Shown in pieces: positions 15,881 through 18,088 of a stretch of DNA of 35,447 nucleotides (the first letter of the stretch is position 1; every line of letters begins with the position of its first letter). The DNA comes from Halobacteriales archaeon QH_6_64_20 (lineage in GTDB: Archaea; Halobacteriota; Halobacteria; Halobacteriales; Halococcaceae): positions 1-35,447 of the forward strand of contig PXQR01000146.1 of the NCBI GenBank assembly GCA_003021235.1, read 5' to 3'. The notes beneath the pieces are model-generated. The model was not told the origin of the DNA and did no database searches. It saw nothing but the letters and a program-made list of their open reading frames with translations. A program made the translations under genes and the position numbers.

Positions 15881-18088
15881 TCACTCGGCCTGCGTCGATT
15901 CGCGCTCGTAGATCGACTCGATGCGGTCGGTGAACGCCGCGGTGAGGTTTCGACGTTTCTTCTTCATCGATGGGGTCAACAGGTCGTTTTCGGGCGTCCA
16001 CTCGGTCGGAACGAGTTCGAAGCGCTTGATGCGTTCGTGGCTCGCGAGCGCCGCGTTCGCGCGTGTCACCTCGGTTCTGACCCACTCGCGGGCGCGCTCG
16101 TCCCGGCAGATCGCCTCGCGGTCGGTCGGCAGGTCGATTCCTTCCTCGGCGGCCCAGGCCCGAAGCGCCGCGAAGTTCGGGACGATCAACGCCGCGACGA
16201 ATTTGCGCTCGTCGCCGATCACCATACACTGATCGACCCGCCGGCTCGTCGCGAAACGGCCTTCGATGGGTTCGGGGGCGACGTTCTTGCCCGTCGAGAG
16301 CACGAGCAATTGCTTGAGTCGGTCCCGGTAGACGAGATAACCATCCGAGCGGCGTTCGATGAGGTCGCCGGTCCGGAACCATCTTTTGGAAGAGCCTCGC
16401 TCTTCCGAACTCTCACTCGTGGTTCGAGACGGCGAAACCGTCTCGTCATCACGAGAGGCGTTCTGCGCCTCTCGAACGACTTCGCTCGCGAGAGCCTCTT
16501 TTGTGAACGCACGCCCGGTTTCGTCCGGTCGATTCCAGTACCCCAAAGAAACGTTCGGTCCCCGGACGAGCAGTTCGCCGATGTCATCGGGATCGACGCC
16601 GTTTTTCACGGTGTTCGTGCCGCTCCCGTTGCCCACGAGGACGCCCGAGTCGTCGTCGCTAACCTCGCTGACTGCCGTTTCGTCGGATATCGTTGCATCG
16701 AGGGCCGCGTCGTCGAGTCGCGTGTCGTCGAGCGCGACGTCGACGTTGTCGAGCGGCGGGCCGATCGTGCCCGGTCGAGGGGCTTCGGGCGGGTTCACCG
16801 ACACCACAGGTGCGGTTTCGGTTAGGCCATACCCTTCGAAGATCGGCAGGCCCATGCCCGCGAACAGCTCGGCGAGGTCCGGCGAGAGGGTACCTCCACC
16901 GCTAATGAAGAAGTCGATCCGTCCCCCCAAATTCTCCCGTACCTGTTCGAACACCAGCCGATCGGCGACAGCGTGACGTATGCGAAGCGAGCGGTCGGGA
17001 TCGTCGGCACGCTGATACGCCCGGCCGACGTCGAGCGCCCAATCGAAGACGGTCCCTCCGAGTCCATCGCCGGCTTCCTCGACCATCGAGTCGAAGATCC
17101 GTTCGTAGACCCGTGGAACGCTCGTCGCGGTCGTCGGACGGACGAGTGCGATGTCCTCCGCGATCGTGTCGGCGCTTTCGGCGTACGCGACGGTCGCGCC
17201 CGAAGCGAACATGACGAAATGGCCCGACGTCCGCTCGAAGACGTGGGCGAGCGGGAGGAACGAAAGGCTCCGCGCCGTCTCGTCGAGCACCGCCATGCCT
17301 TTCGTTTTGTCCGGCCGCGGGCCGAACCGGCGGCGGATCCCGTTGATGTTCGCCCGAAAGTTACGATGGGTGAGTCGTACGCCTTTGGGCTGGCCGGTCG
17401 TTCCCGAGGTATAGATGAGACTCGCGAGGTCGTCCGGGTCACGATCGTCGAGCCAGCGCTCGTAGCTCCCGCGATCGAACGCGGACGCGCCGCGGTCGTA
17501 AACCGTTTCGAGCGTATGGACCGGAACGGCCGTCTCACTCTCGGCCCTGGCGAAGCGTCCCTCCTCGAAATCGTCCATGACGACGACGAACTCGATAGCG
17601 AGGTCGCCCGCTTCCACGGCGTCGAGCACTCGATCGGCGAGCGCGGCGTTCCCACAGACGACGGCGCTCGCTTCGGGATCGCCGAGGAGATACTCGACCT
17701 GCTCGGTCGACGAATCGGTATAGACCGTCGTCACGACCGCGCCGGAAGCGAGCAGTGCCAGATCGCACTGTGCCCACTCCATCCGCGTGTCGGCGTAGAT
17801 CGCGACCCGGTCGTCCGCCTCGACTCCGAGGTCGCGAAACCCCGCCGCGAGATGGCGGACGATCTCGTGTAGTCGTCGGTAGGGAAGCGTCCGGTACTCG
17901 TCGGGGGGCGCTCTCTCGACTACCGACCCGGCCAGCGACCGGTCGTAGACGCCGCCCTTGTAGCCCTGTGCGATCCGATCGGCGTGTCGTTCAGCGCTTT
18001 CGGCGAACAGCCGCGAGAGCGTGCCGTCGCCGATGACCGGGTCCGTATATCGACGCTCGGCGCGTTGCCAGTCGGTGGTCGGCTCCAT
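15881..18088 (-). CDS. Long-chain fatty acid--CoA ligase (AMP-forming)
   Basis: 735 residues. It is an ANL-superfamily enzyme of the FadD/ACSL long-chain type: YTSGTTGQPKGV at about 226-237, SFLPLAHVFERT, GYGLTETAPVV, then RTGDLIERRSDGYL and the late lysine region. It activates fatty acids with ATP and CoA for beta-oxidation or lipid synthesis. It is longer than usual because of two inserts. One is at about 449-495, acidic and Ser/Thr-rich. The other is at about 530-568, between GYWNRPDETGRAFT and WFRTGD, and is encoded almost entirely by short perfect hairpins (see the repeat at 16388-16492). Both are placed in surface loops of the family and leave the motifs intact. The start ATG 18088 lies 25 bases after a TATA box. 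Confidence 0.9.
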   Translation of the reverse strand: MEPTTDWQRAERRYTDPVIGDGTLSRLFAESAERHADRIAQGYKGGVYDRSLAGSVVERAPPDEYRTLPYRRLHEIVRHLAAGFRDLGVEADDRVAIYADTRMEWAQCDLALLASGAVVTTVYTDSSTEQVEYLLGDPEASAVVCGNAALADRVLDAVEAGDLAIEFVVVMDDFEEGRFARAESETAVPVHTLETVYDRGASAFDRGSYERWLDDRDPDDLASLIYTSGTTGQPKGVRLTHRNFRANINGIRRRFGPRPDKTKGMAVLDETARSLSFLPLAHVFERTSGHFVMFASGATVAYAESADTIAEDIALVRPTTATSVPRVYERIFDSMVEEAGDGLGGTVFDWALDVGRAYQRADDPDRSLRIRHAVADRLVFEQVRENLGGRIDFFISGGGTLSPDLAELFAGMGLPIFEGYGLTETAPVVSVNPPEAPRPGTIGPPLDNVDVALDDTRLDDAALDATISDETAVSEVSDDDSGVLVGNGSGTNTVKNGVDPDDIGELLVRGPNVSLGYWNRPDETGRAFTKEALASEVVREAQNASRDDETVSPSRTTSESSEERGSSKRWFRTGDLIERRSDGYLVYRDRLKQLLVLSTGKNVAPEPIEGRFATSRRVDQCMVIGDERKFVAALIVPNFAALRAWAAEEGIDLPTDREAICRDERAREWVRTEVTRANAALASHERIKRFELVPTEWTPENDLLTPSMKKKRRNLTAAFTDRIESIYERESTQAE
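16388..16492. repeat. Cluster of short perfect hairpins inside the acyl-CoA ligase gene
   Basis: Three hairpins with 5-base loops follow one another: arms 16388-16394/16400-16406 (7 bp), 16425-16432/16438-16445 (8 bp) and 16452-16460/16466-16474 (9 bp). They are followed by the palindrome CTCGCGAG at 16485-16492. Together they cover nearly the whole of the extra 40-residue segment of the protein, keep the reading frame, and contain no stop codon in it. Confidence 0.8.

Follow-up and report, generated by a model that had tools for sequence, protein, structure and literature searches.

A family of short palindromic repeats in haloarchaea, one copy of which lies in frame within an acyl-CoA ligase gene

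In the genome of Halobacteriales archaeon QH_6_64_20, the gene for a long-chain acyl-CoA ligase contains a cluster of perfect hairpins between two conserved protein motifs. The cluster lies on contig PXQR01000146.1, within the 35,447-nt stretch of DNA analyzed here (the window). A first-pass annotation of the window described it as an array inserted in frame and likened it to the palindromic elements of Rickettsia (RPEs), which insert into genes without breaking the reading frame. The question raised by this locus is what kind of sequence can enter a conserved enzyme in this manner, and whether it moves as DNA, functions as RNA, grew in place or belongs to the protein family itself.

The insert in the acyl-CoA ligase gene

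All of the hairpins described in the first-pass annotation, together with an accompanying palindrome, were found at their places. The stems of 8 and 9 bp with 5-base loops hold as described; the first hairpin is formed by 8 bp around a 3-nt loop, which is equivalent to the 7 bp and 5-nt loop originally given. The ligase frame was open throughout the insert, which lies between the AFT and WFRTGD motifs, as had been claimed. A codon-level DNA alignment identified an empty site in three congeners, against which the gene has gained a net 111 bp (37 codons). The insert is slightly longer than had been drawn (121 nt, Table 1). In the AlphaFold model of the ligase, the insert (residues 534-566) had pLDDT values below 50, with folded sequence on either side. 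At the nucleic acid level, the fold of the insert region was much better than in dinucleotide shuffles (z = -3.7 when folded as DNA, -4.0 when folded as RNA), and none of 200 shuffles folded as well. Each edge of the insert carries one copy of TCTTTT, and this pair is a candidate target duplication that is possible but unproven, because collapsing the repeat fails to give back the 10-nt congener site.

A second loop of the ligase with pLDDT below 50 was observed at residues about 460-500 (window 16590-16710). It is long, differs between congeners (glycine-rich in G002, acidic in G001) and is missing in distant homologues.

Table 1 Features of the ligase gene, its insert and the repeat unit, in window coordinates
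Feature	Position	Strand	Basis and details
Long-chain acyl-CoA ligase (AMP-binding), 735 aa, host gene	15881..18088	-	ORF; PF00501 (E 5.6e-72) and PF23562; homologues in all relatives searched
Whole insert, 121 nt in place of 10 nt in congeners	16382..16502	.	Codon-level DNA alignment, three congeners
TCTTTT, left copy of 6-bp direct repeat at insert edge	16382..16387	.	Sequence
Extra flanking hairpin GGAAGAGC-CTC-GCTCTTCC, outside the core	16388..16406	.	Inverted repeat I4; arms 16388-16395/16399-16406; similar hairpin at another copy in this genome (L011)
Core repeat unit, 62 bp, GTGGTT-HP1-TCATCA-HP2-AACGAC	16419..16480	+	Exact pattern 27 times in own genome; covariance model R1, 83.2 bits here
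Outer linker GTGGTT, fixed	16419..16424	+	93 copies: first base 88% G, others 99-100%
Hairpin 1, CGAGACGG/CCGTCTCG, loop CGAAA	16425..16445	+	Inverted repeat I8; arms 16425-16432/16438-16445 (8 bp, 5-nt loop); both-side changes at 6/9 pairs
Middle linker TCATCA, fixed	16446..16451	+	100% conserved in 93 copies
Hairpin 2, CGAGAGGCG/CGCCTCTCG, loop TTCTG	16452..16474	+	Inverted repeat I6; arms 16452-16460/16466-16474 (9 bp, 5-nt loop); both-side changes at 9/10 pairs
Outer linker AACGAC, fixed	16475..16480	+	99-100% conserved; pairs with GTGGTT save one G-G mismatch
Flanking palindrome CTCGCGAG	16485..16492	.	Sequence; flank resembles TTCGCTCACGAGAAC adjoining other copies
TCTTTT, right copy of 6-bp direct repeat at insert edge	16497..16502	.	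Sequence

Architecture and distribution of the 62-bp unit

At the center of the insert lies a 62-bp unit in which two hairpins are joined and bounded by three linkers. When the linkers were fixed and the stems left free, 27 exact copies were found in the 3.6-Mb genome and none with a reversed-pattern control, so the hairpin array is not a product of chance. A BLAST search of the same genome with the insert returned 48 matches, nearly all centered on query positions 41-118. The further genomic copies anticipated by the first-pass annotation thus exist, here and across the order, and are mostly intergenic; what recurs is the 62-bp core with its linkers, not the 5-base loops as such. The ends of the unit, considered as possible MITE-type terminal inverted repeats, form a 6-bp imperfect inverted repeat (5/6 pairs), with outer tags that read GTGGTT and GTCGTT, and a CGTC is found at the foot of hairpin 1 rather than at a terminus. 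Paired hairpins inside conserved inverted tags (GTGGTT...AACGAC) are also a feature by which REP and REPIN elements are recognized.

A covariance model of the unit was used to assess its distribution among relatives, in a phylum-wide sample of 197 genomes and in named genomes. Of the 60 relatives, 49 gave matches, among them every one of the 41 good-quality genomes. In the phylum-wide sample, matches were obtained in 33 of the 35 genomes of the same order, compared to 0 of the 162 outside it. All ten named haloarchaeal genomes matched, with linkers identical or nearly so in most top copies, and the genera represented include Natronolimnohabitans, Haloglomus, Halogranum, Haloprofundus, Natrialba and Natronorubrum. 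The model gave at least 84 matches in the genome of origin; since the unit is nearly palindromic, a single place often scores on both strands and such counts are not copy numbers. Matches were also present in 15 haloarchaeal plasmid records, none under an annotated gene in the (incomplete) PLSDB gene table, while a search of IMG/VR for viral carriage gave no exact match. Several units sit at the extreme ends of contigs (G000:C151:1-64, G023:C3:5-66 and G023:C15:4-65), which suggests that they break haloarchaeal draft assemblies and are hence under-counted.

Copies within and between genes

For 117 distinct copies, codon usage was scored to the left and to the right of the unit, and coding sequence was identified on both sides of four (about 3%). 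The host genes are the ligase of the window (L001) and three from related species, which encode a dihydroorotase/amidohydrolase (L172), a Rieske protein (L260) and a PhaC polymerase (L274). The reading frame runs on across each of these units. Genic copies are able to survive in part because five of the six frames of the unit are mostly free of stops, being open in 78-95% of copies where shuffles give about 48%; TGATGA closes the remaining frame. Two further candidates proposed by a rough gene finder (L120 and L132) were rejected, as the codon usage of their flanks gave no support, and a search for additional family loci by way of the encoded peptide gave no new genic copy.

As for the ligase, orthologues of the dihydroorotase, Rieske protein and PhaC in relatives are without inserts. 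The cleanest comparison is provided by the Rieske gene, which differs from its 94% identical orthologue in G013 by a stretch of exactly 60 bp that is in essence just the unit, and no target-site duplication was detected between the two. Residues flanking the Rieske insert are also missing in more distant relatives; this loop probably grew in two stages, unless the unit has been lost from G013. The dihydroorotases of two relatives have additional residues resembling the flanks at the position of the insert, with the unit absent, and the unit appears to enter, or to persist in, loops already tolerant of change. The PhaC insert is bordered on both sides by GGCGG[T/C]GAGC, a candidate target duplication that is doubtful because the insert is itself rich in GGCGAGC.

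At the unit-free Rieske site in G013 (L335), the sequence GTGGCG-CAACG-CGCCAC forms a small, perfectly paired hairpin, as though a hairpin were either the target of the unit or what remains after it has gone.

One form of hairpin 2, with the stem GAGAGRCG, was present in all four genic copies but in only 7 of the 117 copies overall, a pattern seen post hoc. In the main frame this stem replaces K with E and F with S, which raises the acidity of the encoded peptide and lowers its hydrophobicity, and hints at either a subfamily or an adaptation after insertion that suits acidic halophilic proteins.

Between genes, the same gene finder placed 59 copies in tandem, 27 in convergent and 22 in divergent gaps, compared to 182, 61 and 114 background gaps above 100 bp. 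Convergent gaps thus hold 25% of copies against 17% of the background, and divergent gaps 20% against 32%. The slight deficit near promoters is suggestive of repeats that are tolerated, not of a regulatory site at a set position. Comparison with the congener G003 at two intergenic places revealed repeat-rich blocks or a hairpin module here that are absent there.

Maintenance, movement and related elements

Stem covariation was assessed in two alignments. In 93 copies from many genera, fitted to the structure model, 99.0% of stem positions were paired and 15 of 19 pairs had changed on both sides, which was equaled by 0 of 500 shuffles. In 19 copies aligned by MAFFT, independently of structure, 98.3% of stem cells paired and 11 of 20 pairs had changed on both sides, again exceeding all 500 shuffles. 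Each hairpin occurred as about 20 stem types among the 93 copies, with linkers almost invariant. Changes on one side of a pair produced 14 G-U and 13 A-C combinations; as selection on RNA from one strand is expected to leave an excess of G-U, these near-equal counts reveal no bias towards an RNA strand. To judge from sequence alone, this points to a unit that is maintained at the DNA level, or on both strands equally, and is also compatible with RNA from either strand or with templated correction of palindromes.

The first alternative to be weighed is a structural RNA, in which the unit is transcribed and acts as a small RNA, terminator or mRNA stabilizer and its presence in genes is incidental. 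The strong covariation of both stems is what this would produce, and the lean of intergenic copies towards 3' ends is in keeping with it. We nevertheless consider it unlikely: the half-changes favor neither RNA strand (although an RNA from either strand is still allowed), the best Rfam match had an E of 0.85 and fell far under the gathering score, position relative to genes varies, and copies occur in both orientations and within coding sequence. Specific RNAs prompted by UGAUGA on the reverse strand, namely a hammerhead ribozyme or C/D box RNA, were rejected, as position C3 is a G and the linkers are without CUGA; an Rfam scan of the region likewise gave no hammerhead or C/D box match.

We consider it probable that the ligase array represents a single copy, accompanied by flanking hairpin modules, of a family of short, non-autonomous, palindromic mobile DNA elements that is spread through this haloarchaeal order. 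In the mechanism we propose, the unit would spread as DNA, moved by an enzyme supplied in trans that most likely reads hairpin geometry together with the fixed linkers, so that stem sequences may drift as long as they remain paired. Most copies would settle between genes, and a genic copy would persist only if it alters the gene by a net multiple of three nucleotides, within a loop able to accommodate additional residues. In the ligase, 37 residues would have been added to a disordered loop just ahead of WFRTGD, presumably with no effect on the enzyme. Movement is read here from presence and absence comparisons only, and the Rieske unit may equally have been excised from the relative. Templated correction between palindrome arms could also generate the stem covariation with no shape-reading enzyme, and because intergenic copies sit in mosaic arrays, recombination between repeats could be behind part of the gain and loss of units. 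That order-wide fixed linkers, free stems, a putative non-Y1 (HUH) geometry-reading enzyme and repeated in-frame protein insertions together define a previously unrecognized class of mobile DNA in haloarchaea is a tentative proposal about which we are more doubtful than hopeful.

An identity for the mobilizing enzyme is offered by REPIN/PATE-type elements, which would rely on an IS200/IS605 (Y1) transposase or RAYT to move. The unit is REPIN-like in build, with two hairpins and inverted outer tags GTGGTT and AACGAC, and IS605-related PATEs exist in haloarchaea (PMC3119063). However, PF01797 was found in 0 of 4 genomes of the genus (77-90% complete), all of which are rich in the unit, and in just 25 of 60 relatives, some of them poor in it, while positive controls including E. 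coli and Haloferax volcanii gave matches. This origin is therefore improbable.

Local growth, in which arrays expand within a gene by template switching or slippage and resemble each other through convergence of GC-rich palindromes, is very improbable. Perfect pairing that is kept despite sequence change would be expected under quasi-palindrome correction, and further hairpins and direct-repeat motifs do occur in the flanks. Yet such growth cannot yield three 6-nt linkers and a spacing common to copies across the order, the reversed-pattern control gave zero matches, and the 60 bp by which two close orthologues differ amount in essence to one unit; the shared linkers by themselves have largely refuted it. 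Finally, an old loop or domain of the ligase family with palindromes by happenstance would fit the variable length before WFRTGD among homologues, but is refuted, as the inserted sequence is absent from the three congeners and, even as protein, from 11 more distant homologues, where the first-pass annotation had reasoned that an old loop should appear, and the same DNA unit is found between genes and in three unrelated proteins.

Among known systems, the mobile-element reading is best compared to RPEs, which are short, present in many copies and found in frame in unrelated protein genes (PMC10969869; PMC3733652). The haloarchaeal unit shares two of their defining traits, being a multi-copy palindromic repeat in frame in unrelated genes and absent from orthologues. 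The likeness proposed in the first-pass annotation therefore holds for behavior, copies and empty sites, and is one of behavior rather than of demonstrated common ancestry. RPEs are bacterial, measure about 150 bp, fall into several families and carry a CGTC tag at one end, and nearly half of those in R. conorii are genic (PMC10969869). In contrast, the unit described here is 62 bp long, consists of two hairpins and three fixed linkers, and is genic in about 3% of the copies examined. REP, REPIN and BIME elements, of which intragenic REP copies are known (PMC3733652), resemble it in their paired hairpins with inverted tags, mostly intergenic location and mosaic arrays; the unit differs in that it lacks a GTAG tag as such, and in that a search of the genus genomes gave no Y1/RAYT transposase.

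Two haloarchaeal groups are also relevant. PATEs are transposase-free, carry palindromes near their ends, produce no target duplication, are related to IS605-type elements and have no terminal inverted repeats (PMC3119063). The unit is likewise haloarchaeal, palindromic and without a transposase, but consists almost wholly of its two hairpins, and an IS200-type Y1 transposase was not found in the genus. SMR-A and SMR-B of Haloquadratum walsbyi are described, in the part of the account available to us, as transposase-free elements of 80-110 bp with inverted ends and no target duplication that insert into palindromes and into other mobile elements (PMC3119063). They share with the unit a haloarchaeal host and short length, and the Rieske site of the relative is itself a small hairpin; in-frame protein insertions do not figure in that part of the account, and the comparison is by description, not by the sequences of HqIRS42, HqIRS43 and HqIRS55. 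By analogy, SMRs would be the closest of the haloarchaeal elements, and RPEs and intragenic REPs the closest in behavior. No published description of the motif, or of an archaeal RPE equivalent, was found in the open-access literature (supplements excluded).

Insertion of palindromic repeats in frame has been known chiefly from Rickettsia and from certain bacterial REPs, and is here extended to archaea with clean empty sites. As read from the genomes, a parasitic-looking repeat may have supplied new protein stretches in four unrelated genes, one of them a ligase that appears to be working. The fixed linkers and freely covarying stems provide a defined substrate with which to seek a mobilizing enzyme, and genetically tractable haloarchaea make repeat movement and its tolerance in proteins directly testable.

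Two further arrangements were observed. At L014/L025 (contig C123 of the genome of origin, about 266-396), another hairpin module sits in the middle linker of a unit, here read as TGATGA, and appears to have been inserted as a module within a module. At L027 (around 1400-1700), a larger intergenic repeat that recurs in the genus has ends resembling GGGACTGAAAGGGGC...GGGGGCTTTC, which may be terminal inverted repeats, and its orthologous copy in G003 is without the hairpin module.
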